Source: a virus. From it: 64,000 bases of DNA. A program made the position numbers and the translations under genes. Position 1 is the stretch's first letter; the number at the start of each line of letters is the position of its first letter. Under the pieces are notes generated by a model. It saw nothing but the letters and a program-made list of their open reading frames with translations, made no database searches and was not told where the DNA came from. The stretch is from the IMG/VR virus record IMGVR_UViG_3300020390_000002, positions 1 to 64,000 of that record. The stretch is one strand, 5' to 3'. Of this stretch, positions 1,738-62,305 are shown in pieces.

Positions 1738-1766
1738 ATTATCTCAACAAAGGCGCTGGCGATCAA
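1738..1766 (-). promoter_or_regulatory. Sigma70-type promoter of the portal gene
   Basis: On the minus strand TTGATC (1761-1766) is separated by 17 bases from GATAAT (1738-1743). The operator palindrome overlaps the upstream edge of the -35. Confidence 0.7.
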
Positions 1767-1780
1767 GTCAGCGCTGACTT
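1765..1780. promoter_or_regulatory. Operator palindrome (perfect consensus)
   Basis: AAGTCAGCGCTGACTT is a perfect 16-bp inverted repeat. It lies between the terminase stop and the portal start, overlapping the -35 of the portal promoter. It belongs to the dispersed operator family described in the findings. Confidence 0.8.
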
Positions 1781-1784
1781 ATTT

Positions 1785-3023
1785 TTACAGCGAAATACCG
1801 GCCAGCGTGTGCTTGATGATCGGGAACTCGAACTCGAGCGGGTAACCCAGCGCGTCGGTCGCGTGTTCGGCGCCCGCCTGCTTGTCGATGTCGCGCGACC
1901 CCGGCTTGTAGATCGTCTGTTCGAGCGACTTGATGGTGTTCTTGCAGGACTCGTCGATATGCAGGCGCACCACACCGGAGGCGGTCTCCAGCAGCGAGTT
2001 GACCGCGTTCACGCGGTCGGCGATCGGCGGGTGCTTCTTGCGGTGCTTGATCTTCCTGAAGCCGGCCTGGCGGAACACGTCCAGATCGGACTCACCGCGC
2101 CCGGACTGTCGATAGCTGCCGGCCGGATCGGGGTAGATCGTGACGGCGTCCTGCCAGCGCCAGAACTTGCGATCGAGCGCCGCACAGACGTCGGCCGTGT
2201 TCGAACTCGGCAGATATATCTCGTCGACCACCCACAGCTCGCCGGAGGGCTGCGGCTGGATGATCACGCTCGACATCGGGTCGATGTTGAAGTCCTGCCC
2301 GACCCAGATCGGCAGACCCGGGTTGAAGGGGAACTTGCCGACGTGCTTGGTGCGATCGAACGGGTAGTAGACGCGCCCGGCCATCGACTCGAAGCTCGCC
2401 TCGTACTCCTGACGGAACGTCTTGGGGTCCAGCTCGTTGCGCGCGGCCTCGATCTCCTCCGGCGGCACGAACGGCGACTGTGACGTCGGGAACTGCCAGG
2501 ACTTCCACACGCCCGCCTGCTGGTAATCGCCGCGCTGGCCCATGCGGTAGTGGTCGTAGAGGATGTTGAAGCCCTTGGGCGTGCCCTGAATCAGCGCGCC
2601 GCCGCGGGTGGCCGACAGGGTCGGTCGGATGACCTTGCCCCAGACGTCGGGCTTCATGTCCTGGGCCTCGTCGAGGACCACGTAGTGCAGACCCACGCCG
2701 CGCAGGGTGTCAGGCTTGTCCGCGCCCTTGAGCTCGATCACCGAGCCGTTGATGAGCAGGATGCGCAGGCGCGTGTCGTTGATCTTCTTGATCCAGCGCC
2801 GCGGGATCGCGTCCTTGAGCTCTTCCCACATGATGTCGCGCGCCATCTGATAGGTCGGCGCGACATACCAGATGCGCTGCTTTTTCTTCTTGCCCGCCTT
2901 GTCGATCATGATCACGCGGGCCAAAAACGTCTTGCCGGATCGGCGCCCCGCCACCATCGTCTTGAATCGGTGCGGCGCAGAGTAGACCTCGAGCTGCTTG
3001 GGGTGCAGCGGCAGCGCAGGCAT
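1785..3023 (-). CDS. terL: Terminase large subunit (packaging ATPase/nuclease)
   Basis: The motor that cuts concatemeric phage DNA and pumps it through the portal into the capsid. At 412 residues it is a compact TerL. The ATPase half shows a Walker A motif VAGRRSGKTF at residues 24-33, Walker B VVLDE at 115-119 followed by AQD, and the coupling motif TPKGFN near 148. The RNase H-like nuclease half has acidic residues in the expected order: Asp in VGQDFN (about 244), Asp in YPDPAG, and Asp in HATDALGY near the C-terminus. Its start overlaps the stop of the small-terminase-like gene by one base, so the two are translationally coupled. Confidence 0.96.
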   Translation of the reverse strand: MPALPLHPKQLEVYSAPHRFKTMVAGRRSGKTFLARVIMIDKAGKKKKQRIWYVAPTYQMARDIMWEELKDAIPRRWIKKINDTRLRILLINGSVIELKGADKPDTLRGVGLHYVVLDEAQDMKPDVWGKVIRPTLSATRGGALIQGTPKGFNILYDHYRMGQRGDYQQAGVWKSWQFPTSQSPFVPPEEIEAARNELDPKTFRQEYEASFESMAGRVYYPFDRTKHVGKFPFNPGLPIWVGQDFNIDPMSSVIIQPQPSGELWVVDEIYLPSSNTADVCAALDRKFWRWQDAVTIYPDPAGSYRQSGRGESDLDVFRQAGFRKIKHRKKHPPIADRVNAVNSLLETASGVVRLHIDESCKNTIKSLEQTIYKPGSRDIDKQAGAEHATDALGYPLEFEFPIIKHTLAGISL

Positions 3024-3688
3024 TATCCGGAGATGTCCGCGCCATCCAGGTCGGATTCGCTCAGGTCGTCGAGATCCTCGGCGAGCTTGTCGTCGCTGTA
3101 GTTCTGCAGGTGCTCGGCCAGTTCGTCGTCGTTCTGGATCACGTGCAGGCGCGCGATCTCCTCGGCGGTCAGGCCGCGGATGATCAGCTCCGGCAGCTCC
3201 TCGTCCAGGCCGACATCCTTGTCGAGGCCCAGCAGCGTCCAGCGCTCCTCACGCGCGATCTTGCAGATTTCGATCGCCACCTTGATCGCCTTGAGGTTGG
3301 CCATCGCGGTGGCCATCGGGTTGCCCTTATTTCGGGCCGCGGCCAGCTCGGCCATGCCCAGGCGCGCGAGCATCTGCGCCCACTTGTAGTGCTCTTCCTT
3401 GGTCTCGCGAATCTTGATCAGCAGCTCGGCGCCGTCGTTGGCACCGGCTTCAGCGATACTGTCGCGAACCGCGGTGGCCACATCCTTGGAGCCCTTGACG
3501 ACGCCGCGCTTGGTGAAGCGACGGGACAGCGTCTCGTGACGCACGCCGAAGCGTTCGGCCAGCTGCTTGAGGGTGAACTCGCCGGAGGCCCACAGGGCTT
3601 CGGCTTCTCCCCACTGGGTGGGCGTCAGACGATTCGACTTGGGGGTAGCGATGCGTGCAGCCAGATCATCGCGCTTGGACTTGGCCAT
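3023..3688 (-). CDS. Terminase small subunit-like DNA-binding protein
   Basis: This 221-residue protein has a helix-turn-helix near residues 30-60 (LKQLAERFGVRHETLSRRF), followed by a helical middle and an acidic C-terminal tail. Small terminases recognise the packaging site and load the large subunit; the HTH, the size, and the position directly before terL fit. Small terminases diverge strongly, so a different HTH regulator is possible. The ATG at 3688 is the first in frame. A strong promoter lies about 90 bases upstream. Confidence 0.72.
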   Translation of the reverse strand: MAKSKRDDLAARIATPKSNRLTPTQWGEAEALWASGEFTLKQLAERFGVRHETLSRRFTKRGVVKGSKDVATAVRDSIAEAGANDGAELLIKIRETKEEHYKWAQMLARLGMAELAAARNKGNPMATAMANLKAIKVAIEICKIAREERWTLLGLDKDVGLDEELPELIIRGLTAEEIARLHVIQNDDELAEHLQNYSDDKLAEDLDDLSESDLDGADISG

Positions 3689-3779
3689 TGGATTCCCAGA
3701 AAGCGGGGTCCATGCGGACCCCGAATACCCAGCGGAGGAGGAGAACGGACAACGGCTAACCGAAGCATTGTCCGGGCGG

Positions 3780-3809
3780 ATTATATCGCGGAAGCGTGTT
3801 TACGTTCAA
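3780..3809 (-). promoter_or_regulatory. Strong sigma70-type promoter of the packaging operon
   Basis: On the minus strand TTGAAC (3804-3809), an 18-base gap, then a perfect TATAAT (3780-3785). The operator palindrome at 3807-3822 overlaps the -35, as at the portal promoter. Confidence 0.75.
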
Positions 3810-3822
3810 TCAGCGCTGACTT
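3807..3822. promoter_or_regulatory. Operator palindrome
   Basis: CAATCAGCGCTGACTT, two mismatches from consensus, overlaps the -35 of the terminase promoter. Confidence 0.75.
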
Positions 3823-6806: not shown

Positions 6807-7456
6807 GAGCGGCGCTCCGGGTAGGTGGATACAGCGACCCGGTTCTCGTAGTGCTTGGTCACCACGAGGGTCGGGTTGAGATCGAATTCGAGATCGCTGT
6901 GGGTAGTGGCCACCAGCACGGTTGCGCCAGCCTCGCGCGCCATCTTCTGCAGGCAGAAGGCCACGACCTTGGCGGTGTCGCGATCCAGGGTCGCGCCGAA
7001 CTCGTCAGCGACCCAGACGGTCGCGCCGGACTCGATGACCTTGGCGAGCTTGAAGCGATACTTCTGCCCGTCGGAGAGCTGACTCGGCGAGCGCACGAAC
7101 AGATAGGCGTCGTTGAGCCCGGCCATCGACAGCAGACGCACGGCGTCCGCCATGTTCTCGCCCACCTGGTCGATCAGGGGGCGCTCGTCGTATTGCACCT
7201 CGTCGAGCGAGGCGACGCGCAGCCACTCCTGGGTGCGCATCTGACGATGCAGTTCCTTGAGCAGCTGCGACTTGCCCGAGCCGGACTGGCCGGTGATATA
7301 GACCACGTCGCCCTGCAGCACCTCGAGCTTCAGCCCCTCGTAGAGCACGAACTCCTTGTTCGCCAGGCCGATGCCGAAGGCTTCGGCGCACTCGAGCACT
7401 CGCGGGGTGCGATCGACACGCGAGGAGAACGACTTGCTGATGACGTATTCGGTCAT
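6803..7456 (-). CDS. Stand-alone ABC-type ATPase
   Basis: A 217-residue soluble ATPase of the ABC superfamily. It has Walker A GQSGSGKS at residues 56-63, an ABC signature LSDGQ at 127-131, Walker B VWVADEF at 147-153 and a switch His in TTHSDL. No membrane segments and no permease gene are nearby, so it is not a transporter. Such soluble ABC ATPases occur in phage loci with ParB-fold and GNAT proteins; they may power or gate a DNA-acting enzyme. It overlaps ParB-like gene 1 (7453) and the small gene at 6806. Confidence 0.8.
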   Translation of the reverse strand: MTEYVISKSFSSRVDRTPRVLECAEAFGIGLANKEFVLYEGLKLEVLQGDVVYITGQSGSGKSQLLKELHRQMRTQEWLRVASLDEVQYDERPLIDQVGENMADAVRLLSMAGLNDAYLFVRSPSQLSDGQKYRFKLAKVIESGATVWVADEFGATLDRDTAKVVAFCLQKMAREAGATVLVATTHSDLEFDLNPTLVVTKHYENRVAVSTYPERRS

Positions 7457-8115
7457 GCCGGCAGCCCGCTGTGCTTCTCGGCGTACATCAGGAAGGCATC
7501 CAGCCCCTCGGCTTCGGTCTCCTCCTCGATGCGCCCGATGAAGGCGGCCACGATCTTCTGCATGGTCGCGGGGACCCTCTTGAACCCCAGCAGGTCGGTG
7601 ATCGCCACGTCGCCCTTCTTGGCGTTCTCGATCGCGGCTTCCTGGGTGCGGGTCTGGGCATCCACGGAGGCGCCCAGATCGATGACCACCTTCTCGTCGC
7701 TGAAGTCGCCGAGATCGGCGGTCAGAAAGTCCAGCTCGCGCGCGTCGAAGCCGGTGTTGAGCAGGTCGTCGGTCATCGCCAGCGCGGCCAGCTCGGCCTG
7801 CAGCAGCTCGGTGTCGTAATCGGTCGAGGAGACGCGGTTGTCGGCCAGGCGAGCCGCCTTGACCTGGTCGGGGGTGAGATCGTCACGCACGATCACCGGC
7901 ACCTGGGTCATGCCCAGCTTGAGCGCCGCCAGGCGCCGGCCGTGCCCCTTGATGATCACGCCGTCGGCGTCGACCACGATCGGCTGATCCCAGCCGTGCT
8001 CGCTGATCTGCTGGGCGAGCTTCGTGACCTGCAGCTCGTCGTGGATCTTGGCGTTCTTTTCGTAGGGCAGGATGGTCTCGATGTCCCGCGCGACGATCTT
8101 GAGCTTGTCGGTCAT
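7453..8115 (-). CDS. ParB-fold protein 1
   Basis: A 220-residue protein whose first 110 residues match the ParB/Srx fold: LPYEKNAKIH near residue 16, QPIVVDADGVIIKGHGR with the GHGR motif at 57-60, then a VPVIVRDDLTPDQVKAARLADNR helix pair. The C-terminal half lacks the HTH of partition ParB. Phage proteins of this type act as nucleases, NTPases or modification-complex subunits rather than in partition, and no parA is visible. It pairs with a second ParB-fold gene two cistrons upstream. Confidence 0.8.
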   Translation of the reverse strand: MTDKLKIVARDIETILPYEKNAKIHDELQVTKLAQQISEHGWDQPIVVDADGVIIKGHGRRLAALKLGMTQVPVIVRDDLTPDQVKAARLADNRVSSTDYDTELLQAELAALAMTDDLLNTGFDARELDFLTADLGDFSDEKVVIDLGASVDAQTRTQEAAIENAKKGDVAITDLLGFKRVPATMQKIVAAFIGRIEEETEAEGLDAFLMYAEKHSGLPA

Positions 8116-8262
8116 TTACCAGCCCTCGCTGAAATCAAGCGGCTCGCGCTCGTCGACGGGCTCGTATTGCTCGCCGGCCGGGCACTCGTCACAGACGTCG
8201 GAGTTGCAGTCCTCGAAGTTCACGCAGGAAAGGCACTCCGGGAAACGGATTCGGTCATTCAT
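8116..8262 (-). CDS. 48-residue Cys-rich protein
   Basis: A very small protein with five Cys residues in the first 27 positions (C-x2-C-x5-C-x4-C-x2-C), a probable zinc knuckle, followed by an acidic tail. The ATG at 8262 overlaps the stop of ParB-like gene 2 by eight bases, and its TAA abuts the start of ParB-like gene 1, so it lies inside the operon. A purine-rich AGGGG site precedes it. Confidence 0.65.
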   Translation of the reverse strand: MNDRIRFPECLSCVNFEDCNSDVCDECPAGEQYEPVDEREPLDFSEGW

Positions 8263-8926
8263 GGCTTGGCCCCTTCCCCTGGGCCGAATGGGTGATGAGA
8301 TGGAGTAGCGCGTTGCCGGCGTTGATCTCGGCGAGGTCGTCGGTGAACGACTGCGTGCGCATGATCTTTTCGATGACGTCGGTGACCACGTGGGCGTCCT
8401 TGACGGGCACGCGGAACTTGATCGTCTGATGGGTGGGCGGTGCCGTGGGCTCCAGCGGCGCGGTCGTCACCGTGGTGGGCTCATCGGGGAAGCCGATGCT
8501 GTCCAGATCGATGTCGGTGGCGGCGAAGATCGCGTCCACATCGGTCATCTCGATCGGCAGCAGTTCCACCAGGGTGTCGGCGCCCAGCTCACGGAAGATG
8601 TCGGCAAGCAGCAGGCTGTCGTCGGTGCCGTAGCGGCCGTTGTCGATCAGCCCGATCTCCTTCGCCTGTGCGTCGTCGATCGGCCCCAGGTTGATGACCG
8701 GCACGCTGGCCAGACCCATGCGCTCGGCGACCTTGACGCGGTGCGCGCCGCCCAGGATTTCGAGCTGGCCGTCGGCACGCTCGCGCACCAGCACGGGCTT
8801 GAACATGCCGTTGCGACGGATGGACGCCTCGATCTTCACCTCGTTCTCGGGACCGACCACGTTCGGGTTCCACGGATTCGGGTGCAGCCGAGACGGATCG
8901 ATCTTGAGGATTTCGTGTGCGTCCAA
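8255..8926 (-). CDS. ParB-fold protein 2
   Basis: A 223-residue ParB/Srx-fold protein: P-x-x-WNPN near residue 18, FKPVLVRER near 42, the GGAHR motif at 59-63, then the helix pair. The C-terminal half is unrelated to partition ParB. I chose the TTG at 8926 because GGGAG lies eight bases before it; the ATG at 8950 has no ribosome site and adjoins the operator palindrome. It is the first gene of the 8.9-4.3 kb cluster. Confidence 0.8.
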   Translation of the reverse strand: MDAHEILKIDPSRLHPNPWNPNVVGPENEVKIEASIRRNGMFKPVLVRERADGQLEILGGAHRVKVAERMGLASVPVINLGPIDDAQAKEIGLIDNGRYGTDDSLLLADIFRELGADTLVELLPIEMTDVDAIFAATDIDLDSIGFPDEPTTVTTAPLEPTAPPTHQTIKFRVPVKDAHVVTDVIEKIMRTQSFTDDLAEINAGNALLHLITHSAQGKGPSHE

Positions 8927-8944: not shown

Positions 8945-8973
8945 TTGCATTTAAGTCAGTGCTGACTTACTAT
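8945..8973 (+). promoter_or_regulatory. Promoter of the plus-strand operon
   Basis: TTGCAT (8945-8950), 17 bases, TACTAT (8968-8973). The operator palindrome exactly fills the spacer, so a bound protein would block RNA polymerase. The divergent minus-strand operon starts on the other side. Confidence 0.65.
8953..8968. promoter_or_regulatory. Operator palindrome in the divergent promoter region
   Basis: AAGTCAGTGCTGACTT, one mismatch from consensus, lies between the two divergent operons and inside the plus-strand promoter. Confidence 0.8.
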
Positions 8974-12944: not shown

Positions 12945-12960
12945 CAGTCAGGAGTGACTT
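12945..12960. promoter_or_regulatory. Degenerate operator-like site
   Basis: CAGTCAGGAGTGACTT keeps both arms of the palindrome but not the centre, and the AGGAG in it also serves as the ribosome site of the next gene. Confidence 0.4.
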
Positions 12961-12964: not shown

Positions 12965-13408
12965 ATGAGCGACGACGAATTCGACCGTCAAGCCCCGACC
13001 GACCCGAGTCAGATCGTCGTCGGCTCGATCGTGCGCGCAGCCTTCACGGTGCGCGACGACCTGCGCAACACCGGCCCCGTGAAGGGCGAGCTCGGCGTCT
13101 GCCTCGCGGTCCTGCCGCGGCCCCACGGGCAGCAGACCCGCATCGTGCTGTTCCATTCCGGCCCCCTGATGACCTTCACGCTGGAGGGCGTCGAACGCCA
13201 TTTGTGGCCCGAGGGTCGCGTGGTCGAGGGCCTGACCAGCTACCAGCTCAACCTGGAAGACGAATATCAGAGCGTCATGAAGCAGTGGAGCCAGGGCTAT
13301 TTCAACGAAGCCTGGACATTCCGCGCGCCGCGGCTTGTGGCCTCGAATCCCGAAAAGCGTTCGACCGCGAGCGCCGACACCAAGACCACCCCCAACGGAG
13401 CCGCCTGA
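12965..13408 (+). CDS. Hypothetical protein, 147 residues
   Basis: A soluble, probably beta-rich protein (GSIVRAAFTVRDD..., FTLEGVERHLWPEG) with a disordered Ser/Thr/Lys tail. The ATG at 12965 was preferred over the upstream TTG because of the AGGAG ten bases before it. It overlaps the next gene (TGATG). The family is not recognised. Confidence 0.6.
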   Translation: MSDDEFDRQAPTDPSQIVVGSIVRAAFTVRDDLRNTGPVKGELGVCLAVLPRPHGQQTRIVLFHSGPLMTFTLEGVERHLWPEGRVVEGLTSYQLNLEDEYQSVMKQWSQGYFNEAWTFRAPRLVASNPEKRSTASADTKTTPNGAA

Positions 13409-14032: not shown

Positions 14033-14470
14033 ATGTATACCGAGCTACACCTCACCGCCATGTTATCCGCTGACACGCCCACGGACGTGATCGACACGAT
14101 CAAGCGCATGACTGGCCAGTCCAACGATCCGATCCGCAAGCCGGACCATGCCCTGTTCCAGATTCCGGGCTGGGATTCGATGCTTCAGTCGGATTCGGCC
14201 CTGTTTGCTGGCATTACCTACAGCCGTATCGAGCAGCGCAACGCCAGCGGACGCTACGCCCTGTCGGTGCATTGCAATTTCCGCACCGAAGAGAAGTTGC
14301 CCGCCTTCCTGGAATGGATCTGGCAATACATCGACAGCGCGCCGGGCCGCTTCATCGGCTATCACCGCCGCGAGGGCGAGGCGGACCCCACCCTGATCTA
14401 CGTCCCCAAACCCGAAATGCTCGAGCCCAGCGAGGCGCTCGTCGAAGTGGACATGGCGGGCTACGAATGA
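14033..14470 (+). CDS. Hypothetical protein upstream of RtcB
   Basis: A 145-residue alpha/beta protein beginning MYTELHL. Proteins of this look are common, uncharacterised phage genes. AGGAG lies seven bases before the ATG, and the stop overlaps the rtcB start, so the two are co-translated. No catalytic motif is visible. Confidence 0.65.
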   Translation: MYTELHLTAMLSADTPTDVIDTIKRMTGQSNDPIRKPDHALFQIPGWDSMLQSDSALFAGITYSRIEQRNASGRYALSVHCNFRTEEKLPAFLEWIWQYIDSAPGRFIGYHRREGEADPTLIYVPKPEMLEPSEALVEVDMAGYE

Positions 14471-15690
14471 GCACCCAGCACTACATCTACGACGGCAGCG
14501 CCCGTCACCCGATCAAGGGCTGGACCAACGGCGTCGTCGTCGAACACGAGGCGCAGCAGCAGCTGCGCAACATCGCCAACCTGCCCTTCATCCATAAGCA
14601 CGTCGCGGTCATGCCCGACGTCCACTTCGGCAAGGGCGCGACGGTCGGCTCGGTGATCCCGACCCGCAAGGCGATCGTGCCGGCGGCGGTGGGTGTCGAC
14701 ATCGGCTGCGGCATGTGCGCCGTGCGCACCTCGCTGTCGGCCGCCGACCTGCCCGAGTCCATGCGGGCCGTGCGTGCCGAGATCGAGCACGCCATTCCGC
14801 ACGGCGGCCCGGGCGTCAAGGGCTCCTGGAAGGAAGCCGGGCGCTACGGCACGCCCAACAGCGTGGCCCGGCTCTGGCGCGATCGTTTCGAGCAGCCCTA
14901 CAAGGCGCTGCTCGACAAGCACCGGCATGCGTCGTCGAAGGCGACCGCGGATCAGCTGGGCACGCTCGGCGGCGGCAACCACTTCATCGAGGTCTGTCTC
15001 GACGAGGACGACCGCGTCTGGGTGATGCTGCATTCCGGCTCGCGCGGCCTGGGCAATCGCATCGGCAGCTACTTCATCGACCAGGCCAAGGAGCTGATGG
15101 CGCAGATGCACATCGAGCTGCCCGATCGCGATCTGGCCTATCTGCCGGAGGGCGTCCCGCTGTTCGCGGACTACTGGAGCGCGCTGCAGCTCGCGCAGGA
15201 CTTCGCGCGTGCATCGCGTGACGTCATGCTCGATCGCACGCTGGAAGCGCTGCGCAAGCACTTGCCGCCCTTCGTGCTCACGGAGCAAGCAATAAATTGC
15301 CACCACAATTACGTCGCGCTGGAGAACCACTACGGCGAGAACGTCTATGTGACCCGCAAGGGCGCCGTGCGCGCTCGGGAGAACGACCTGGGGATCATCC
15401 CTGGTTCGATGGGCACCGGCAGCTTCATCGTGCGTGGCAAGGGCAACCCCGAGAGCTTCTGCAGCTGCTCGCACGGCGCCGGCCGCGCGATGAGTCGCGG
15501 TGCTGCCAAGCGCGCGATCTCGCTCGAGGACCACGCGAAGGCGATGACCGGCATCGAGGCCCGGCTGGATGCCGGCGTGCTCGACGAATCGCCCGCCGCC
15601 TACAAGGACATCAATGCGGTCATGGCCGCGCAATCAGACCTGATCGAAGTCGTCTATCGGCTGCGTCAGATCGTCAACGTGAAGGGGTAG
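14467..15690 (+). CDS. rtcB: RNA-splicing ligase RtcB
   Basis: A 407-residue RtcB, the ligase that joins 2',3'-cyclic phosphate (or 3'-phosphate) and 5'-hydroxyl RNA ends using GTP and manganese. Visible family motifs: GVDIGCGM with the metal-binding Cys81, LGTLGGGNHFIEV, MLHSGSRGLG, CHHNY and the C-terminal CSHGAGR holding the guanylylated His. The ATG at 14467 overlaps the preceding stop; longer frames read into the upstream gene. In phages RtcB can repair tRNAs cut by host anticodon nucleases. No tRNA genes are in this window. Confidence 0.95.
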   Translation: MSTQHYIYDGSARHPIKGWTNGVVVEHEAQQQLRNIANLPFIHKHVAVMPDVHFGKGATVGSVIPTRKAIVPAAVGVDIGCGMCAVRTSLSAADLPESMRAVRAEIEHAIPHGGPGVKGSWKEAGRYGTPNSVARLWRDRFEQPYKALLDKHRHASSKATADQLGTLGGGNHFIEVCLDEDDRVWVMLHSGSRGLGNRIGSYFIDQAKELMAQMHIELPDRDLAYLPEGVPLFADYWSALQLAQDFARASRDVMLDRTLEALRKHLPPFVLTEQAINCHHNYVALENHYGENVYVTRKGAVRARENDLGIIPGSMGTGSFIVRGKGNPESFCSCSHGAGRAMSRGAAKRAISLEDHAKAMTGIEARLDAGVLDESPAAYKDINAVMAAQSDLIEVVYRLRQIVNVKG

Positions 15691-19684: not shown

Positions 19685-19700
19685 GACTCAGCGCTGATTT
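19685..19700. promoter_or_regulatory. Operator palindrome
   Basis: GACTCAGCGCTGATTT overlaps the last bases of the 19699 gene and lies just before its terminator, so it is not clearly in a promoter. Confidence 0.6.
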
Positions 19701-20268: not shown

Positions 20269-20876
20269 GATCGTGCTTCCTTTGTAGTGTGCGTGGATGC
20301 TTTCCACAATTCAAACTATACACACTTTTTGCGCTTGTGCACGTTTTTCTGAAAAATATTTTGCATTGTTTTCTATCGTCGTTCGAAAAACGATAGTGCA
20401 AAACTATCGCTGTTCTATTCCTTCAAACACGCGCGAGCGCGCGCGAGTAGCACACTTTTCAAGATAGTGTCAATTTATTTTTGTAAATATTTTTCTTGCA
20501 CAATCCTGCAAAGCATGATCCAGATTCCTGCGCGCGTGCTCATAGTCCGCGCGCGGCGTCAACGATCGGCAGTGATTTATTTTCGCTGCGTGATACAGCG
20601 ATTTTCGTGTAGGATGCACGCATAATAGTTGTACTATACATGCACAATAGCTGCACTATGCAGACGATTTTCGGCGGCACGGCGGATGGCACGGCCTGGC
20701 GTGCGGCGAACGGCAGGCGCCGCGGCACGGCCCTTGGCCACAGCGCCGCGGGCATGATCTGAGCCGCCTTATACCTATGGGCCGCCGCGGTGCCATAGGG
20801 GCCGCCTTATATGTATAGGCCGAGCCGATCCCTATAGGGGCCGCGGCAAGCCATAGGGCCGCGGCTGGGACGGCGA
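20269..20876. other. Gene-free repeat-containing spacer
   Basis: No gene is visible. From 20300 to 20650 the DNA is AT-rich with palindromic stretches (TATCGTCGTTCGAAAAACGATAG near 20375). From 20670 to 20870 it is built from GCCGCGGC/CCTATAGGGGCCG-like units. A segment at 20755-20780 recurs at 22697-22722. Confidence 0.55.
20755..20780. repeat. Dispersed direct repeat, copy 1
   Basis: TGATCTGAGCCGCCTTATA followed by CCTATGG, repeated with one mismatch at 22697-22722. Both copies lie in spacers upstream of a terminator. Confidence 0.7.
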
Positions 20877-22397: not shown

Positions 22398-22426
22398 ATA
22401 ATAGCTCAGCGCTGACTTAATGCACA
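22398..22426 (-). promoter_or_regulatory. Promoter with operator in the spacer
   Basis: On the minus strand a weak TGTGCA (22421-22426), 17 bases, TATTAT (22398-22403). The operator palindrome occupies the spacer. Confidence 0.55.
22403..22418. promoter_or_regulatory. Operator palindrome
   Basis: AGCTCAGCGCTGACTT, two mismatches from consensus, between -35 and -10 of the 22357 gene promoter. Confidence 0.75.
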
Positions 22427-24788: not shown

Positions 24789-24804
24789 AAGTCAGTGCTG
24801 AGTG
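24789..24804. promoter_or_regulatory. Operator palindrome at the transcript start
   Basis: AAGTCAGTGCTGAGTG lies just downstream of the -10 of the 24769 gene promoter, where the transcript would start. Confidence 0.7.
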
Positions 24805-24840: not shown

Positions 24841-25462
24841 GCGCTGGGAGCGGGGTTTTTGCCCAAGGGTTTCCGGGGCGCCGGAAATATATGCCGTGGC
24901 AGCACGCTGTAACCTAGCGGCACGGTCCTTTCCCCTTCACCCAGCGCTAAGCCCCACGACCCTAGCCCTATGCGCCAAGCGTTAGGAACCTACACTCAGC
25001 GCTGAGCAATCCGGGGACGGTCTCCTTTATGCCTGTACTCGAGGGACCTATGGCCTATGGGGGAGTAACCGTGTCTGTTTGTGCTATGGGAGTGACGCGC
25101 TGAGAGCGTCTCTAAGACACGGGAGTGCTTATCCTGTATGCGTGTACGTCTCTATGGACGATCGCAGCGGGAAGGAGCGCTGGATGCGCTGGAATGACGT
25201 GGTTCGTGGATGCTATATCGCTGTTTGCATCGCGCATAGGTCAGAGCGTGCTGCTTTGCGTATCGATCCGGGGGTTTGTCAACGATCCGGGCCTGGGCTT
25301 TCTGTGTGTCTTTCGCTTGGCGTTTGCGGGATTTTGTGCGTTGACGGGTGGTTGGGTTTTGTGGCGCTTGTTTGCGGGTTCGCGTGATCTGGATTTGACC
25401 GGGATTCAATCGTTTAGCATTTTGCGGTTATAACGTGCGGTATAAGGCTGGGGCTGTGGGGG
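24841..25462. other. Gene-poor spacer with an isolated palindrome
   Basis: No well-supported gene. CACTCAGCGCTGAGCA (24993-25008) matches the operator family but is far from any start. A 102-codon hydrophobic plus-strand frame (25125-25433) could encode a membrane protein, but no ribosome site supports it. Confidence 0.5.
24993..25008. promoter_or_regulatory. Orphan operator-like palindrome
   Basis: CACTCAGCGCTGAGCA keeps the ACTCAGCGCTGAG core but sits in a spacer without a clear promoter. Confidence 0.4.
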
Positions 25463-30159: not shown

Positions 30160-30175
30160 ATGTCAGCGCTGACTT
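30160..30175. promoter_or_regulatory. Operator palindrome
   Basis: ATGTCAGCGCTGACTT lies in the leader between the 30200 and 29839 genes, with a half-site near 30130. The promoter elements here are weak. Confidence 0.7.
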
Positions 30176-30684: not shown

Positions 30685-30713
30685 ATTATGTCAGCGCTGA
30701 CTTATGCCTGCAA
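30685..30713 (-). promoter_or_regulatory. Promoter with operator in the spacer
   Basis: On the minus strand TTGCAG (30708-30713), 17 bases, CATAAT (30685-30690). The perfect core GTCAGCGCTGAC fills the spacer. Confidence 0.7.
30688..30703. promoter_or_regulatory. Operator palindrome
   Basis: ATGTCAGCGCTGACTT within the 30652 gene promoter. Confidence 0.8.
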
Positions 30714-32103: not shown

Positions 32104-32133
32104 AGTATGTCAGCGCTGACTTACTACCTGCAA
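32104..32133 (-). promoter_or_regulatory. Promoter with operator in the spacer
   Basis: On the minus strand TTGCAG (32128-32133), 18 bases, CATACT (32104-32109). It has nearly the same sequence as the 30652 gene promoter. Confidence 0.7.
32107..32122. promoter_or_regulatory. Operator palindrome
   Basis: ATGTCAGCGCTGACTT within the promoter of the 32072 gene. Confidence 0.8.
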
Positions 32134-33175: not shown

Positions 33176-33191
33176 GGATCAGTACTGAGTC
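33176..33191. promoter_or_regulatory. Diverged operator palindrome
   Basis: GGATCAGTACTGAGTC keeps the ATCAGTACTGA centre, in the leader of the 33142 gene. Confidence 0.5.
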
Positions 33192-35288: not shown

Positions 35289-35304
35289 AAGTCAGCGGTG
35301 ACTA
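35289..35304. promoter_or_regulatory. Operator palindrome
   Basis: AAGTCAGCGGTGACTA, in the leader of the 35250 gene. Confidence 0.7.
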
Positions 35305-36900: not shown

Positions 36901-36916
36901 AAGTCAGCGTTTACTT
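36901..36916. promoter_or_regulatory. Operator palindrome
   Basis: AAGTCAGCGTTTACTT lies between an AATAAT -10-like element (36916-36921) and the ribosome site of the 36881 gene, close to the expected transcript start. Confidence 0.65.
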
Positions 36917-38121: not shown

Positions 38122-38137
38122 AAGTCAGTGCTGAGTC
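38122..38137. promoter_or_regulatory. Operator palindrome in the leader
   Basis: AAGTCAGTGCTGAGTC lies about 15-30 bases downstream of the -10 of the 38105 gene promoter. Confidence 0.7.
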
Positions 38138-41578: not shown

Positions 41579-41594
41579 AGGTCAGCGCTGAACC
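41579..41594. promoter_or_regulatory. Operator palindrome, leader copy
   Basis: AGGTCAGCGCTGAACC, 22 bases downstream of a second copy (41601-41616); the centres are two helical turns apart. Confidence 0.65.
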
Positions 41595-41600: not shown

Positions 41601-41616
41601 GACTCAGCGCTGACTT
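41601..41616. promoter_or_regulatory. Operator palindrome, promoter-proximal copy
   Basis: GACTCAGCGCTGACTT lies just downstream of the -10 of the 41564 gene promoter. Confidence 0.75.
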
Positions 41617-42064: not shown

Positions 42065-42080
42065 GAGTCAGTGGTGAATT
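42065..42080. promoter_or_regulatory. Operator palindrome
   Basis: GAGTCAGTGGTGAATT lies in the leader of the 42050 gene, next to a GATAAT-like -10. Confidence 0.6.
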
Positions 42081-46432: not shown

Positions 46433-46448
46433 ATGTCAGTGCTGAGTT
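46433..46448. promoter_or_regulatory. Operator palindrome
   Basis: ATGTCAGTGCTGAGTT in the leader of the 46415 gene. Confidence 0.7.
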
Positions 46449-46501: not shown

Positions 46502-46546
46502 CAAAAAAATGCGAGTTGTAAATCAGTGGTGACTTACAACCCGCAT
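46502..46546 (-). terminator. Strong terminator containing an operator palindrome
   Basis: On the minus strand a 17-bp stem (46509-46525 with 46530-46546, two G-U pairs) with a 4-base loop is followed by seven T. The apex of the stem is the sequence AAGTCACCACTGATTT, a member of the operator family (46520-46535). It ends nrdB transcription. Confidence 0.85.
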
Positions 46547-48794: not shown

Positions 48795-48810
48795 AAGTCA
48801 CTGTTGACTT
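48795..48810. promoter_or_regulatory. Operator palindrome
   Basis: AAGTCACTGTTGACTT, just upstream of TATAAG/TACTAT-like -10 elements that precede the 48754 gene. Confidence 0.65.
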
Positions 48811-48904: not shown

Positions 48905-48920
48905 AAGTCAATACTGACTT
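48905..48920. promoter_or_regulatory. Operator palindrome
   Basis: AAGTCAATACTGACTT lies in the 3' region after nrdA and before its terminator, so it has no obvious promoter partner. Confidence 0.6.
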
Positions 48921-48939: not shown

Positions 48940-51285
48940 TCACTGGCAAGAGGTGCAGTCCGGGCCGTTTTCGATCGAACAGACCAGCGCGTCGAGCGGT
49001 TCGGAGCTGTTGTTGACGACGCTGACCGTAACCGGCGCGACGCCCTGCTCGTCGACCTTCACGCGGTAATCGCTAGCAGCGAGCCCAGCGGGGGCCATCA
49101 CCTCGACGACCGGCTTGATCTCGCCGATGACCTTGTGGTCCACGTCGTTGATCTGATTGCGCAGGTAGTAAGTCGTCTTGACGCCGAGACGCCAGGCAGT
49201 GCGATACCAATCGTCCAGCTCGCGCCCGAGGGTGCCGAACTTGGCGAACAGGTTCAGGCTCTGGGCCTGGTCGATCCACTTCTGACGCACGGCCGCGGCA
49301 CGGATCAGCCACTTCTGGTCGATCTCGAACACCGTCTTGATCTGGTCGGCAGACAGATACTTGAACGTGGGGTCGAGCACCTTGAACAGGCCGGAGGTCT
49401 GCTCGAAGTTGCCTACCCGCTCGAACGCCGGCTCGATGCAGGGGCTGCAGCCGGTGATGTGGCTGATCGTGGCGGTCGGGGCGATCGCCATGACGTTGGA
49501 GTTGCGCATGCCGTGGCGCTTGATGCGCTCACGCAGGCCGTCCCAGTCCACGCGACCGCCGCGCCCTGACCAGGCCGCCGGCAGCTTGCGGGCCGTATCG
49601 ATAGGCAGCAGTCCCCGATCCCACTTCGAGCCGTCGTAGCTCTCGTAGGTGCCGCGGTCGGCTGCCAGATCGCAGCTGGCGCTGATCGCCCAGTAGCTCC
49701 ACTGCTCGAAGAACTCGTCGGTCAGGCGCAGATGCTCCTCGCTCTCCCAGTCCACGCCCATGCGGGCCACGTATTCGTTCCATCCCATCAGGCCCAGGCC
49801 GATCGGGCGATGGCGCATATTGGAGTAGCGCGCCTTTTCGGACGGGTAGAAGTTCAGGTCGATCACGTTGTCGAGCATGCGCACCGCAACGGTGATGACG
49901 CGGCGCAGCTGGGCCGGGCCGATGCGGCCCACGTTCACGCTACCCAGGTTGCAGACTGCGGTTTCGTCGTCGGAGGTGTTGAGGGTGATCTCGGTGCAGA
50001 GGTTGGAGTTGTGGACCGTGCCGACGTGGTCCTGCGGGCTGCGGCGGTTGCACTCGTCCTTGAAGGTGATCCAGGGCGCGCCGGATTCCGCGAGCGAGGT
50101 GATGATCTTGCGCCACAGCGTGTTCGCATCAACCTTGCGGACAGCCCCACCCTCTGCTTCGGCGGCCTCGTAGGCGGCCTTGAACTCGTCGCCGTACAGC
50201 TCGTGCAGCTCGGGGTATTCGGCGGACGAGAACAGCGACCACTCGCCGCCGGCCTCGAGGCGCTCCATGAACAAGTCGTTCATCCACAGGGCCGGGAAGA
50301 TTTCGCGGGCACGCATGCGGTCGTCGCCGGCGTTCTTCTTGAGGTCGATGAACGCCTCGACGTCGGCATGCCAGGGCTCAAGGTAGGCCGCGAAGGCGCC
50401 GTTGCGCTTGCCGCCCTGATTGACGGCCACGGCCGTATCGTTGAACACCTTCAGGTAGGGCACCACGCCGGACGACTTGCCGCGCGTGCCCTGGATCAGA
50501 TCCCCGGACGGGCGAACGCGCGTCCAGTCCGTGCCGATGCCGCCCGCCCACTTCGACAGGTGCGCGCACTCGGTGATCGTGCCGTAGATCCCCTCGATCG
50601 AGTCGTCGACCGTATTCAGGTAGCAGCTCGACATCTGGCTGTGGTTTGTGCCGCTGTTGAACAGCGTCGGCGTGGAGCTGACGAACTCGAACTGGGACAG
50701 CACGTCATAGAACTGAATGGCCCAGAAGGTGCGCGCGGACTCATGTTCGTTGAGCGCCAGGCCGAGCGCGACGCGCATCCAGAAGTGCTGCGGCATCTCC
50801 ATCACGGTGCCCTTGGAGCCGCGCTTGCCCTCGCGACGGATCAGGTAGCGGTCATAGACCGTCTGCATGCCGCGGTAGTCGAACAGCATGTCGCGGTCGG
50901 GATCGATCGCCTTGTCGATCGCCTCGAGATCGAAGCTGAGCAGGTCGTAGTTCAGCGCCCCCTGAGCCACGCCCTCTTCGATGTATTCACGCAGCGGCCG
51001 GTAGCTGACTTCGCCGCCGGTGGCCTCCTTGTAGGTGCGCTGCATGAGCAGGCGCGCGGCCACGAACGTGTAGTCGGGGTTGTTGACGGTGACCGCTTCC
51101 GCCGCGGCCTTGATCAGAAGATCCTGCATCTGTTGGGTCGACACGCCGTCGTAGAAGGCGATGCCGCTGTTGTCGATGACCAGCTGGGGGTTCACGTCGA
51201 GTCCGGCGCACGCCCAGCGCACGCACTTCTCGATCTTTTCGGGACAAAGGGGCTCTTTCGAGCCATCACGCTTGATGACTTCCAT
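48940..51285 (-). CDS. nrdA: Ribonucleotide reductase large subunit (class I)
   Basis: A 781-residue R1 protein. An N-terminal ATP-cone (MEVIKRDGSKEPLCPEKIEK) is followed by the barrel with SCYLNTVDDS, NQGGKRNGAFAAYLEPWH, LCTEITLNTSDDETAVCNLGSVN, and a Cys-x-x-Cys end (DCTSCQ) that takes electrons from thioredoxin or glutaredoxin. It makes dNTPs for phage replication. AGGAGAC lies six bases before the ATG. The promoter upstream has an extended -10 and an operator. Confidence 0.95.
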   Translation of the reverse strand: MEVIKRDGSKEPLCPEKIEKCVRWACAGLDVNPQLVIDNSGIAFYDGVSTQQMQDLLIKAAAEAVTVNNPDYTFVAARLLMQRTYKEATGGEVSYRPLREYIEEGVAQGALNYDLLSFDLEAIDKAIDPDRDMLFDYRGMQTVYDRYLIRREGKRGSKGTVMEMPQHFWMRVALGLALNEHESARTFWAIQFYDVLSQFEFVSSTPTLFNSGTNHSQMSSCYLNTVDDSIEGIYGTITECAHLSKWAGGIGTDWTRVRPSGDLIQGTRGKSSGVVPYLKVFNDTAVAVNQGGKRNGAFAAYLEPWHADVEAFIDLKKNAGDDRMRAREIFPALWMNDLFMERLEAGGEWSLFSSAEYPELHELYGDEFKAAYEAAEAEGGAVRKVDANTLWRKIITSLAESGAPWITFKDECNRRSPQDHVGTVHNSNLCTEITLNTSDDETAVCNLGSVNVGRIGPAQLRRVITVAVRMLDNVIDLNFYPSEKARYSNMRHRPIGLGLMGWNEYVARMGVDWESEEHLRLTDEFFEQWSYWAISASCDLAADRGTYESYDGSKWDRGLLPIDTARKLPAAWSGRGGRVDWDGLRERIKRHGMRNSNVMAIAPTATISHITGCSPCIEPAFERVGNFEQTSGLFKVLDPTFKYLSADQIKTVFEIDQKWLIRAAAVRQKWIDQAQSLNLFAKFGTLGRELDDWYRTAWRLGVKTTYYLRNQINDVDHKVIGEIKPVVEVMAPAGLAASDYRVKVDEQGVAPVTVSVVNNSSEPLDALVCSIENGPDCTSCQ

Positions 51286-51332: not shown

Positions 51333-51357
51333 ATTATAGCATAGTCAGCGCTGACTT
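51333..51357 (-). promoter_or_regulatory. nrdA promoter and operator
   Basis: On the minus strand an extended -10, TGCTATAAT (TATAAT at 51333-51338), with the operator TAGTCAGCGCTGACTT (51342-51357) covering the spacer and -35 region. No good -35 is needed with the TG extension. Confidence 0.72.
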
Positions 51358-55470: not shown

Positions 55471-56558
55471 TCGACGGCCTCCACGGTGGTCAAAATGTCG
55501 TCGCAGACCGTCTTGACGGCCTCCGGATCGTCGTATCCCTTCTCGTCGATGTACGCCGCAGTCGAGCCACGCAGCGTCTTGCCGGCGGTGACCGCCGCGC
55601 TACGGGTTGCAGCAGCCTTGCGGATGGGGATGACCGTGACGCCCAGCGCGCCGGCCTCCTTGAGCTGATTGCGCACGGTCTCGACGTCGGATTCGTTCTC
55701 GATCTCGACCTTCACGCGCACGAAGTGGCCATCGACCATCAGCTCGATGTCGTTGGGGTCGGTGTCGACCGTGATGTCCACGAACTGCGGCGCCTGGGTG
55801 CAGCGCCACTCGACCTTCTCCGGGTAGACCAGCAGGTGGCCCGCCTTCGTGTTCGGGTCGTTCCAGGTCTGGTGCGTGACCGCGCCGATGGAGTAGACGC
55901 CGTTACCGAAGTCGACATGATTGTGGTAGTGGCCGGCGAACACGCGCTTGAAGCCCAGTGCGGCCAGCTCGTCGGCCTCGAGACCGGAGTCCGGCAGGCC
56001 CTTGATCACGCCGTTGACCGGCGCATGGATGACGGCGTCGACTTGAGCGCAGTCACCGCCGCGTTCCGACAAGCCCTGCAGCCATTCCTGCATCGTCTTC
56101 ATAAGCTGCTGATGTGAACCATGCCAGGGGAAGAGCGCCACGTTCTGGTCGCAGTCGAGCTTGAAGCTGTTGCCGGCAGGATCGTTGACCATCGTCACAC
56201 CCACGCGCGTGAGCGCTTCGGCGGAATTGCTCAGCCGGAACGTGTCGTTGGTTTCCAGATCGTGGTTGCCGGGGATCGCGTAGATGTTCAGGTCGAACTG
56301 AGTTTTCAGTTCGGCGAACAGGTCGAGCGTGACGTTGAGCACCATCGGCGAGACCGAGCCGCGCACGTGAAAGATGTCGCCGCCGATCACCACGTCCCGG
56401 CCGCCGCGATCGATCAGCTCGCGACAGGCAAGCCGGATGTTTTCGCGGATACTCCACAGGCGCGAGTTGACGCCGTTCTCGTTGATGGTCGAGAACGCGG
56501 ACCACTCGTGCATGTGCAGGTCCGAGATCAGCAGATAGGGAACGCTACTTGCCGGCAT
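55467..56558 (-). CDS. SbcD/Mre11-like nuclease (gp47-like)
   Basis: A 363-residue metallophosphoesterase: ISDLHMH, VIGGDIFHVRG, PGNHDLE, and later FAGHYHNHV, the order of metal-binding motifs in SbcD/Mre11. The ATG at 56558 has GAGG six bases upstream and overlaps the end of the small membrane gene; an upstream ATG has no site. It is the partner of the SbcC-like ATPase. Confidence 0.92.
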   Translation of the reverse strand: MPASSVPYLLISDLHMHEWSAFSTINENGVNSRLWSIRENIRLACRELIDRGGRDVVIGGDIFHVRGSVSPMVLNVTLDLFAELKTQFDLNIYAIPGNHDLETNDTFRLSNSAEALTRVGVTMVNDPAGNSFKLDCDQNVALFPWHGSHQQLMKTMQEWLQGLSERGGDCAQVDAVIHAPVNGVIKGLPDSGLEADELAALGFKRVFAGHYHNHVDFGNGVYSIGAVTHQTWNDPNTKAGHLLVYPEKVEWRCTQAPQFVDITVDTDPNDIELMVDGHFVRVKVEIENESDVETVRNQLKEAGALGVTVIPIRKAAATRSAAVTAGKTLRGSTAAYIDEKGYDDPEAVKTVCDDILTTVEAVE

Positions 56559-56793
56559 TCTTGGCCTCGTCAAGCTGGGCCTCGAGGTCTGCATCGGCGT
56601 TCTTGATGAGGTTCGACATCACCATGAAGCCCGTCGCGAGCATCGAGTTCCAGATCAGCAGGCAGATCGCGAGGATCGTGAACAGCCAGTTGGTGCCGAC
56701 CGCGAGCGCGGCGATCAGGGCGACCGACAGGACGAAGTGTCCGAGCGTGAGCAGTGGGTTGAGGGTGCATTTGACGCCTTTGAAATGGTGCAT
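56545..56793 (-). CDS. Small two-helix membrane protein
   Basis: An 82-residue protein with hydrophobic helices (about 12-32 and 36-62) and an acidic C-terminal tail. First gene of the recombination operon, with AGAGGAC before the ATG. It could attach recombination proteins to the membrane, but that is speculation. Confidence 0.65.
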   Translation of the reverse strand: MHHFKGVKCTLNPLLTLGHFVLSVALIAALAVGTNWLFTILAICLLIWNSMLATGFMVMSNLIKNADADLEAQLDEAKNAGK

Positions 56794-56828: not shown

Positions 56829-56856
56829 ATGATAAGTCAGCGCTGAGTTATGTCAA
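56829..56856 (-). promoter_or_regulatory. Promoter of the recombination operon
   Basis: On the minus strand a perfect TTGACA (56851-56856), 16 bases, TATCAT (56829-56834). The operator fills the spacer. Confidence 0.78.
56834..56849. promoter_or_regulatory. Operator palindrome
   Basis: AAGTCAGCGCTGAGTT between -35 and -10 of the recombination operon. Confidence 0.8.
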
Positions 56857-60672: not shown

Positions 60673-61659
60673 TTACGAGCCCAGCGCGTCCAGCTCGGCC
60701 ATCAGGGCATCCACGTCCTCGTCGTCCGAGCTGGCCGCAGCCTGGACCGGGTTCGCGGCCGGAGCAGCAGCCGGAGCAGCAGCCGGAGCAGCAGCCGGAG
60801 CCGGGGCAGCAGCCGGGGCCGGAGCCGGGGCAGCAGCGGCCGGAGCGGCGGGCTCCGACTCGGTGAAGTCGGCATCGCTGACGTCACTGAGGTCTTCGTC
60901 GAGGCTGATTTCACTCAGACTCGGCGCCTTCGCAGCGGCAGGAGCGTGCGTCAGAGCGCCCGCGCCCGTCGAAGCCGTCACCAGACCGCGCGTTGCGTTG
61001 ACCACGCCCAGCGCCTTCTGCAGACCCGCCTCGTATTCCTGATCGACGTACTCGTCGAGGTTGGTCACCTTGTCCATGATCGACGGATCGATCGCGGTGG
61101 ACTTGACGGCCACGTTGACGGTGTATTTCGTGCTCAGGCCGGTGCCGTCGCGTTCGATCATCACGTCATAGCCTTCGGCGAAGTCGAAGATATTGACGCC
61201 TTCGTCGTAGTAGTTCTTGGCGACGTTGCAGAACTGCTCGAACACGGTCATCGGCATTTCCAGCACGACCGGCGTGTTCGGCTCGGAACCATCACGACGC
61301 AGCGCGTTGACCAGCATGCGCGGGGTGGCCTTGCTCGCTTCCAGCGCCTTGATCGTGGCGTCGTCGTGCGCGTCACGGATGCCCTCGCTGATCAGCTCGC
61401 ACACCCGGCACGGACGGCCATAGGTGGCCTCTGCGCAGATGTAGACGGCCTTGACCTCGTCGCTGCCCGGCGCCTTCAGGAAGTGAACGCCGTAGCCGTG
61501 GAAGAACGGCTGCTCTTCACCATTCGGGCCTTTCGGGCGCCAGGACGGAAGCACGCGATAGCGCGACTTGCCCGGCGTGATCTTGGCCGTGCGCTCACGG
61601 CGGCCCGAGCGGGCCTGCGCCTGCTTCTGCGCGGCATTAAGAATGTCCAACATGCTCAT
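60673..61659 (-). CDS. gp32-like single-stranded DNA-binding protein
   Basis: A 328-residue protein with an N-terminal self-association region, a core with a gp32-type zinc site (His54 or His59, Cys75, Cys84, Cys87 in YICAEATYGRPCRVC), a long Ala/Pro-rich linker built from repeated Pro-Ala units, and an acidic C-terminus (DDEDVDALMAELDAL) for protein contacts. It protects and organises single-stranded DNA at the fork. AAGAGG lies nine bases before the ATG. Assigned by motif order, not by alignment. Confidence 0.85.
   Translation of the reverse strand: MSMLDILNAAQKQAQARSGRRERTAKITPGKSRYRVLPSWRPKGPNGEEQPFFHGYGVHFLKAPGSDEVKAVYICAEATYGRPCRVCELISEGIRDAHDDATIKALEASKATPRMLVNALRRDGSEPNTPVVLEMPMTVFEQFCNVAKNYYDEGVNIFDFAEGYDVMIERDGTGLSTKYTVNVAVKSTAIDPSIMDKVTNLDEYVDQEYEAGLQKALGVVNATRGLVTASTGAGALTHAPAAAKAPSLSEISLDEDLSDVSDADFTESEPAAPAAAAPAPAPAAAPAPAAAPAAAPAAAPAANPVQAAASSDDEDVDALMAELDALGS
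60750..60840. repeat. GCCGGAGCAGCA repeats encoding the SSB linker
   Basis: Short tandem GCAGCAGCCGGA-like units encode the Pro/Ala linker of the SSB. Length variation here would change linker length without breaking the frame. Confidence 0.75.
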
Positions 61660-61694
61660 AGATAGGTTCCTCTTAGTTGTGCAGTCGTAAATGT

Positions 61695-61710
61695 AAGTCA
61701 GTGGTGATTT
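61695..61710. promoter_or_regulatory. Operator palindrome
   Basis: AAGTCAGTGGTGATTT in the leader of the SSB gene, next to a TAATAA-like -10 (about 61709-61714). Confidence 0.68.
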
Positions 61711-61722
61711 ATTACTGCGATG

Positions 61723-62235
61723 TTAATGTTCTCGTCCAACCTGGCCTGCGATTCGGGTTGCCTCGTCACGAGCCGAGCCGCCTGAACCCGTTGTTCCGCT
61801 AACGGTGACACGGGCCTGGCCCTTCATTTCTTCGAGCTGACGCTTACCGACCTGCACGAGCATGTCGCGACGCTGCTTGAAGGCTTCGAGCGCGTTACGG
61901 GCCATTTCCGCGATCATGCGCGAGTCATTGGCCAGCTTCGCTGCCTGGATATAGTCGGGGTGCAGGATGATCCGCTCCTCGACCATGTTCTCCGTCACTT
62001 TCTTGCCGCCCTCCGCGGCATCCTCGCGCACCGCATGGGCGACACGCGCGCGCACGTGGGTCATGTGCGTCTTGAACCGATCCGCCTGATGCTGCGCCTG
62101 CGCGTAAATGTTCCCGTAGTAGGAATACAGCGACGCCTGCTGCATCATGGCCGTGTCGATGTCCACGTCCGAAAAAGCGACCTGCTCCTTGAGCTTCGCA
62201 GGGTCGATGAACTTCTTGAAAACAGGAGCGGTCAT
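61723..62235 (-). CDS. Helical protein between SSB and polymerase
   Basis: A 170-residue helical protein with a basic centre and a disordered Gly/Ser/Thr tail. Its position between the gp32-like SSB and the polymerase suggests a replication accessory such as a recombination mediator or helicase loader, but no motif confirms it. The ATG at 62235 has AGAGGA nine bases upstream. Confidence 0.55.
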   Translation of the reverse strand: MTAPVFKKFIDPAKLKEQVAFSDVDIDTAMMQQASLYSYYGNIYAQAQHQADRFKTHMTHVRARVAHAVREDAAEGGKKVTENMVEERIILHPDYIQAAKLANDSRMIAEMARNALEAFKQRRDMLVQVGKRQLEEMKGQARVTVSGTTGSGGSARDEATRIAGQVGREH

Positions 62236-62263
62236 AGAATTTTGTCCTCTTTCTGATGAATGA

Positions 62264-62292
62264 ACTATAGTCGTCGCTGAGTAGAAAGTCAA
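62264..62292 (-). promoter_or_regulatory. Strong promoter of the SSB/RecA region
   Basis: On the minus strand TTGACT (62287-62292), 17 bases, TATAGT (62264-62269). The operator lies directly upstream and overlaps the -35. Confidence 0.78.
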
Positions 62293-62305
62293 TCAGCGGT
62301 GACTT
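62290..62305. promoter_or_regulatory. Operator palindrome
   Basis: CAATCAGCGGTGACTT overlapping the -35 of the 62235 gene promoter, as at the terminase promoter. Confidence 0.78.

Follow-up and report, generated by a model that had tools for sequence, protein, structure and literature searches.

The first 64,000 nucleotides of the IMG/VR virus record IMGVR_UViG_3300020390_000002 (hereafter the window; the whole record, G000, has 91,335 bases) contain a family of 16-bp palindromes dispersed between the genes, and the searches described below confirm that this family is real. The palindromes are very probably the operators of one lysogeny repressor, acting by dispersed-operator repression. Judging from sequence comparison, this regulator is most likely a small lambda-repressor-like protein encoded in the same record, outside the window.

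An earlier note on the window had described about 25 such palindromes, essentially all lying between genes. A palindrome-like 16-mer is present at each of its 26 coordinates, and a search for AAGTCAGCGCTGACTT allowing up to 3 mismatches gave 21 matches in the 64 kb, whereas 0.24 were expected and 100 shuffled sequences gave at most 2. Since circularity had to be avoided, a position matrix was derived from a different phage, G001, whose 117.5-kb IMG/VR record had been retrieved by the exact 16-mer. At 10 bits or more this matrix recovered 23 of the 26 sites, the other three, at 24993 (0.3 bits), 33176 (4.0 bits) and 41579 (6.4 bits), being weak or doubtful copies. It also added one window match that the earlier list lacks and, in the 27 kb not read before (64-91 kb), 8 sites, at 68221, 70381, 71613, 71636, 76005, 80363, 81109 and 84893. 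Over the whole record, at the same threshold, 31 of 32 matches were intergenic, and 1.5 matches would be expected in Markov-1 sequence; a matrix built from the previously listed sites gave, at 14 bits or more, 32 matches, all of them intergenic, in a record of which 12% is non-coding. Genes were called by a simple hexamer-based finder written for this analysis, on which the 12% rests, so that the intergenic labels carry some uncertainty; with the published annotation of the Escherichia coli LF82 phage-plasmid Cyrano, 29 of 31 sites are intergenic and 2 coding. The earlier note had proposed a matrix scan of this and related genomes, and had regarded equal frequencies inside genes or in shuffled sequence as speaking against its reading; the scans found the sites equally frequent in neither, and both the palindrome family, apart from its three poor members, and its intergenic location were borne out.

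The palindrome system is not peculiar to G000, because six relatives of the SSU5 superfamily (SSU5, X66, B1VFA, RHEph10, Acinetobacter pDETAB1 and Cyrano) have a dispersed intergenic dyad of their own. In a blind search, every 6-mer half-site was tried with spacers of 0-8 and the intergenic matches were counted. This yielded AGTCAG-N2-CTGACT in G000 (31 intergenic, 1 coding), G001 (38 and 12) and G002 (34 and 6), TAAGTA-N2-TACTTA in the Rhizobium phages X66 (69 and 0) and B1VFA (71 and 0) and in SSU5 (36 and 5), and TCAATA-N2-TATTGA in RHEph10 (44 and 2), while in Nickievirus hairong no half-site reached 8 intergenic matches. Klebsiella pINF102.5 was searched for the G000 site alone. Refined matrices gave 26-40 intergenic against 1-9 coding sites per genome (X66 37 and 1, B1VFA 40 and 1). 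The dyad geometry was taken from information profiles, the N4/N8 spacer counts in X66 and B1VFA being confounded by a 4-bp site period; the most informative triplet is TCA at about 5-4-3 bp from the centre of the dyad in G000, G001 and G002, and TAA or TCA at about 7-6-5 bp in the others.

By its gene content, G000 is a member of the SSU5 phage-plasmid superfamily. Its portal protein is 53-55% identical to those of SSU5-type elements of Klebsiella and Escherichia (54.5% to SSU5 over 93%), its TerL was identified by PHROGs, and it has in common with Cyrano two ParB-like proteins, ribonucleotide reductase (NrdA/B), SbcCD, RecA, a polymerase, CobT/CobS and a ligase; the exonuclease and single-strand-binding protein core genes also belong to the shared superfamily set, with gene order compared by eye. 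The portal protein matches 904 plasmid records, SSU5-type elements being common in Klebsiella, Escherichia, Acinetobacter, Enterobacter and Salmonella. A tyrosine integrase is encoded at record 71842-73371 (+). A 17-mer of the site occurs in 66 cellular stretches in GTDB, of which a single one, in a Methylocystis bin (L145), encodes many phage-like proteins, with 15 BLAST protein matches against 3 for the next best. In this bin (4.2 Mb), 25 of the 29 match rows (both strands, 0-1 mismatch) fall on contigs C3, C4 and C7, and the only repressor homologue of the bin is on C3; the phage-like proteins of L145 together with this homologue would suggest a host of the Hyphomicrobiales. G002 is probably a phage-plasmid as well: near its repressor, an open reading frame (ORF; L066, 68414-69376) encodes a plasmid replication initiator with an RPA domain (PF10134, E 1.7e-74).

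Most sites lie shortly before start codons. A minus-strand gene lies downstream of 29 of the 30 G000 sites having a gene start in range; in 25 of these 30 oriented sites the distance to the start codon is 12-57 nt, in 4 it exceeds 100 nt, and some units have two sites. An operator stands directly upstream of 30 genes, and operator-headed units hold 103 of the 142 called genes, among them, according to PHROGs, portal and terminase for packaging and nrdA, sbcCD and ssb for replication and nucleotide metabolism. The earlier note had also stated that, where a sigma70 promoter can be read, the palindrome covers the -35, the spacer or the transcript start. Overlaps with -10 and -35 boxes are indeed visible, but their statistics are modest: in 101 oriented class I sites of three genomes, -10-like boxes in sense versus antisense orientation numbered 9 versus 4 just upstream of the dyad, 11 versus 8 at its downstream edge and 10 versus 2 at 20-39 nt downstream. 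These positions are modest evidence that the dyad would sit on the transcript start or near the -35.

With regard to the regulator, the earlier note had proposed binding tests with helix-turn-helix (HTH), ribbon-helix-helix and family A proteins. The likeliest regulator is encoded outside the window, at record 70950-71351 (+): a 133-residue lambda-repressor-like protein whose gene adjoins the integrase and is opposite in direction to the preceding genes. A Pfam scan of the small window proteins common to other phages (RNase T-like, AAA and others) revealed no good regulator. Using the G000 protein as query, phmmer at E ≤ 1 matched one ORF each in RHEph10, G002, G009, G001, B1VFA, X66, G003 and Acinetobacter, and none in hairong, SSU5, G006 and G007; a related-locus search seeded with the same protein gave no matches. 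In Cyrano, CYRAN_45, which is annotated as 'putative repressor', scores 84.8 bits against the family profile and lies between the integrase and CobT/CobS, as in G000. In each of 7 genomes examined the repressor gene has an operator no more than about 200 bp upstream of its start; in Cyrano the distance is 30 nt.

The N-terminal domain of the candidate repressor is predicted to adopt a lambda-repressor-like fold. In a fold model of the G001 homologue (L203, 148 residues) residues 11-80 are confident (block means 86-92) and the C-terminus is poor; in Foldseek this model comes closest to C.BclI, C.AhdI and lambda repressor, with a best E of 0.006 and no match under 0.001. By sequence, the closest solved structure is that of an immunity repressor protein (8bny, E 3.9e-6), and the best matches to PHROG transcriptional regulators had an E of 1.4e-5 for the G000 protein and 7.5e-15 for the Acinetobacter homologue. 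Pfam and PHROG scans found no peptidase domain in the repressors searched; Cyrano has been reported to be induced by DNA damage (PMC9928086). Repressor homologues occur in 62 of 397 Hyphomicrobiales genomes at E 0.001, 14 of these below 1e-20.

The letters of the operator appear mostly to change with the recognition helix of the repressor. Half-sites AGTCA (C) and AGTAA (A) were counted in intergenic DNA with spacers of 4 and 8 and one mismatch, and the half-site letter was used to define the class because each of the two matrices (class I and class II) also matches sites of the other class. When residue 3 of the helix is K, S or Q, the C:A counts were 31:5 in G000, 48:15 in G001, 35:0 in G002, 35:12 in RHEph10, 16:2 in G003, and 10:4, 11:1, 7:1 and 8:1 at loci L205, L206, L207 and L272; when it is N, they were 2:86 in B1VFA, 0:11, 0:13 and 3:6 at L212, L213 and L210, 0:16 in Cyrano and 0:26 in Acinetobacter. 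C-type operators therefore accompany 9 of 10 K/S/Q repressors and 0 of 6 N repressors, all six of which have A-type operators (p = 0.0009, uncorrected for descent). The test comprised 16 repressors and omitted L203 (identical to G001), L204 (same helix as L205), L208, L209 and L211 (A-type throughout and related to B1VFA and L212) and L274-L291 (no or few half-sites). On the tree three C/A changes are needed, and a single origin of the A-type is compatible; the Cyrano and Acinetobacter proteins are just 23-30% identical to the B1VFA-type proteins with the same N and A.

Cyrano also offered a view of the lysogenic state. In the transcriptome of the E. coli LF82 lysogen, 14 Cyrano genes, CYRAN_45 included, exceed the prophage median by a factor of 5 or more (PMC9928086, Table 1). 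Genes listed as expressed make up 3 of the 80 in operator-headed units, one of them being the repressor, versus 11 of the other 43 (p = 0.0005). When unit and distance were defined in 12 different ways, the odds ratio ranged from 0.11 to 0.51, with p < 0.05 in 10 of them, and placing the same number of operators at random gave p = 0.01. In SSU5 (JQ965645), tblastn detected no counterpart of CYRAN_40-46, a set that includes the integrase and the repressor, no search having been made for an unrelated replacement repressor. No coding sequence is annotated in SSU5 from 41776 to CobT at 42761. Despite the absent integrase-repressor block it retains 26 intergenic operators and, on these comparisons, seems to be a natural derivative from which this repressor is absent.

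On this basis we infer binding, dimerisation, polymerase block and superinfection immunity as follows. A dimer of the 133-residue repressor would bind the AGTCA-N4-TGACT dyad; with dyads at the promoters or transcript starts of about 30 units, early and late, most of the prophage would be silent, and the repressor gene itself and the integrase would have sites too. The earlier suggestion of one dimeric regulator controlling most operons is supported, with two amendments, the probable location of the regulator outside the window and the presence of dispersed palindromes in relatives, given the share of genes in operator-headed units (103 of 142), the single HTH family found with the sites and the letters that mostly track the helix; the dimer is read from the symmetry of the site only. 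As a tentative and rather doubtful extension, a whole superfamily of temperate phages and phage-plasmids, with hosts among the alpha- and gammaproteobacteria, would maintain lysogeny with one small repressor that closes nearly every promoter, early and late; a single helix residue would set C or A in the half-site, the dyad spacing would vary by lineage, and immunity groups would be predictable from genomes. The many operators might in addition be bridged and the prophage condensed.

Several observations weigh against the operator interpretation or parts of it. In the gene-level Cyrano test, with an operator directly upstream, 1 of 26 genes was expressed versus 13 of 97, a difference without significance (p = 0.30). 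Neither G006 nor G007 gave a repressor match although both have sites; the two records are partial, and that of G006 stops within a CobS match, just before the repressor locus. The G000 protein matches Pfam HTH families with E 0.05-0.12, short of the curated cut-off, and the sense excess of -10-like boxes is only modest. Some sites lie inside called genes in G001 (9 of 46) and G002 (7 of 46). Acinetobacter pDETAB1 is a weaker case, because AT-only dyads rank top in its blind search (TATATA, 30 intergenic and 1 coding) and TAAGTA is sixth (23 and 1), so that AT-rich intergenic DNA may inflate the count. The helix rule is broken by L273 (K; 3 C and 5 A) and, with few sites, by L291 (S; 2:4) and L288 (N; 2:0); p becomes 0.002 with L291 added and 0.013 with both L291 and L288. 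Finally, at 17 further homologue loci (L274-L290), 15 had no match to either operator matrix and a significant dyad of the locus itself was found at none. Belonging to this protein family is thus no sufficient sign of dispersed operators, and only part of the family seems to use them.

Other explanations of the palindromes were weighed against dispersed-operator repression. They could be centromere-like parS sites of the two ParB-like proteins (7453-8115 and 8255-8926), used for partition or spreading; parS sites are also 16-bp palindromes, and one of the two ParB_N proteins of the window starts beside one of the copies. On the other hand, Pfam at E up to 1 finds in both proteins the ParB N-terminal domain (PF02195) alone, with no DNA-binding domain, and hairong has homologues of both (40% and 38% identity) but no dispersed dyad. 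As the sites are mostly just 5' of start codons and their letters track another protein, a parS function is extremely unlikely. RNA hairpins in 5' leaders, acting as terminators, attenuators or processing sites, would account for a palindrome that can fold into a 6-bp stem and for the many copies that could sit in leaders. The pattern of base changes led us to reject them: in three genomes with 112 sites together, 98 changes affect one side of a pair only, and just 6 of 12 two-sided ones are complementary; with median RNA energies of -1.9 to -4.1 kcal/mol, this explanation is barely credible.

We consider it very unlikely that a regulator of the host, rather than of the phage, binds the palindromes, since the site differs between phages, mostly tracking the phage repressor, and since the near-exact Methylocystis sites are clustered on three contigs, one of which has the sole repressor homologue of the bin. 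What speaks for a host regulator are single copies kept 5' of aroC in six Bradyrhizobium contigs and of dnaB in six Mesorhizobium contigs, with gene names assigned by eye; the 66 GTDB stretches compare with about 60 expected by chance on our own estimate, and the chromosomal copies were judged to be near chance or inherited with the neighbouring gene. One exact palindrome is present in each of these aroC (L102, L103, L106, L113, L116, L162) and dnaB (L101, L118, L126, L144, L155, L160) contigs, apparently by inheritance. Closer to the preferred reading, the same repressor could act mainly as a roadblock to elongation, as at true stoperators, and not by blocking initiation. The L5 repressor acts in this way (PMC5712189, PMC9283540), and the few G000 sites more than 100 nt from a gene start and the units with two sites would suit it. 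Since the site is symmetric, the palindrome has no direction, which counts against a roadblock, as do the short distances to the start codon at most sites and the -10-like boxes that abut some of them; we regard it as rather unlikely.

Positions in the window and matrix scores are collected in Table 1.

Table 1. Candidate operators in the window; scores are those of the G001 matrix.
Feature	Position	Gene context or remark	Found as	Bits
operator	1765..1780	5' of portal gene 202-1713 (-)	perfect 16-mer	28.9
operator	3807..3822	5' of HTH-like gene 3023-3688 (-) and TerL	pattern search	17.8
operator	8953..8968	between divergent ParB-like gene (-) and helicase gene (+)	pattern search	29.1
operator	12945..12960	4 nt 5' of gene 12965-13408 (+)		18.6
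operator	19685..19700	2-base overlap with 3' end of ORF 19699-20307 (-)	pattern search	13.1
operator	22403..22418		pattern search	17.4
operator	24789..24804		pattern search	19.6
doubtful copy	24993..25008	10-bp core perfect, flanks poor		0.3
operator	30160..30175		pattern search	24.9
operator	30688..30703		pattern search	24.9
operator	32107..32122		pattern search	24.9
doubtful copy	33176..33191			4.0
operator	35289..35304		pattern search	18.2
operator	36901..36916		pattern search	21.9
operator	38122..38137		pattern search	20.3
weak second copy	41579..41594	22 bp from 41601		6.4
operator	41601..41616		pattern search	20.1
operator	42065..42080			15.5
operator	46433..46448	17 nt 5' of gene 45405-46415 (-)	pattern search	19.7
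operator	46520..46535		pattern search	18.8
operator	48795..48810		pattern search	21.9
operator	48905..48920		pattern search	25.3
operator	51342..51357	5' of nrdA 48940-51285 (-)	pattern search	21.5
operator	56834..56849	5' of gene 56545-56793 (-), which runs into sbcD, sbcC	pattern search	23.5
operator	61695..61710	5' of single-strand-binding protein gene 60673-61659 (-)	pattern search	18.8
operator	62290..62305	5' of gene 61723-62235 (-)	pattern search	14.5

Two pairs of palindromes, 41579/41601 in the window and 71613/71636 in the record, are spaced by 22-23 bp, or about two turns of the helix, a distance compatible with cooperative binding, the copy at 41579 being weak. Some further genes of the record are worth mentioning. 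The thymidylate synthase gene (window 42490-43977 (-), Pfam Thymidylat_synt) has an in-frame HNH-endonuclease-like insert at residues ~143-288, a candidate intein or similar homing element. The DNA polymerase (window 62311-63489, record 63486-66576), a single ORF in G001 and G002, is broken in two by a 235-residue ORF, and the primase ORF (L023, record 76541-78622) is about twice the length of its G001 and G002 counterparts, with an intein-like stretch near the N-terminus judged by eye. The RtcB RNA ligase gene (window 14467-15690 (+)) has ~71-72% DNA identity with its counterpart in Caulobacter phiCbK-like phages.

Lambda CI, P22 c2 and the restriction controller proteins (XRE/HTH_3) act at one or few operators. 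The predicted fold of the candidate repressor's N-terminal domain is similar to theirs; it differs from these regulators in having tens of putative sites and, in the scans made, no peptidase domain. In Cyrano the homologous CYRAN_45, at the same locus and annotated as putative repressor, is expressed in the lysogen (PMC9928086); the Cyrano operators are TAAGTA-N2-TACTTA-like, and no mention of them was found in the available part of that article. For SSU5-type and Rhizobium phages no published account of genome-wide operators was found, in a search that left outside most subscription papers and all preprints. If the proposed system is true, superinfection immunity and induction would become testable from sequence in the SSU5-type group, a group in which, as in P1-like phage-plasmids, integrons with predicted resistance genes are reported to be common (PMC11652158), and SSU5 would appear as a natural derivative that lacks this repressor.

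The closest parallels are found in P1 and in the Cluster A mycobacteriophages. P1, whose prophage is a plasmid, uses one repressor, C1, at 22 operators dispersed over the phage, by which the lytic genes are repressed; its operator is an asymmetric 17-mer (PMC8546580), whereas the G000 site is a symmetric dyad. L5 has 24 mostly intergenic sites, with a consensus that varies with the repressor (PMC5712189, PMC6550527), and the lytic D29, which has lost the repressor and kept the stoperators (PMC5712189), resembles SSU5. Many mostly intergenic sites throughout the genome are found in G000 too (31 of 32), but in Cluster A the 13-bp site is asymmetric and lies in one orientation, and it is bound by a repressor monomer through two domains (PMC9283540). 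The comparison drawn by the earlier note, with stoperators but with a symmetric site, is in agreement with these results. The most fitting interpretation is a dispersed-operator lysogenic repression like that of P1 C1 and of the L5 stoperators, acting at a symmetric site, which would represent a third kind of dispersed-operator control beside those of P1 and L5.

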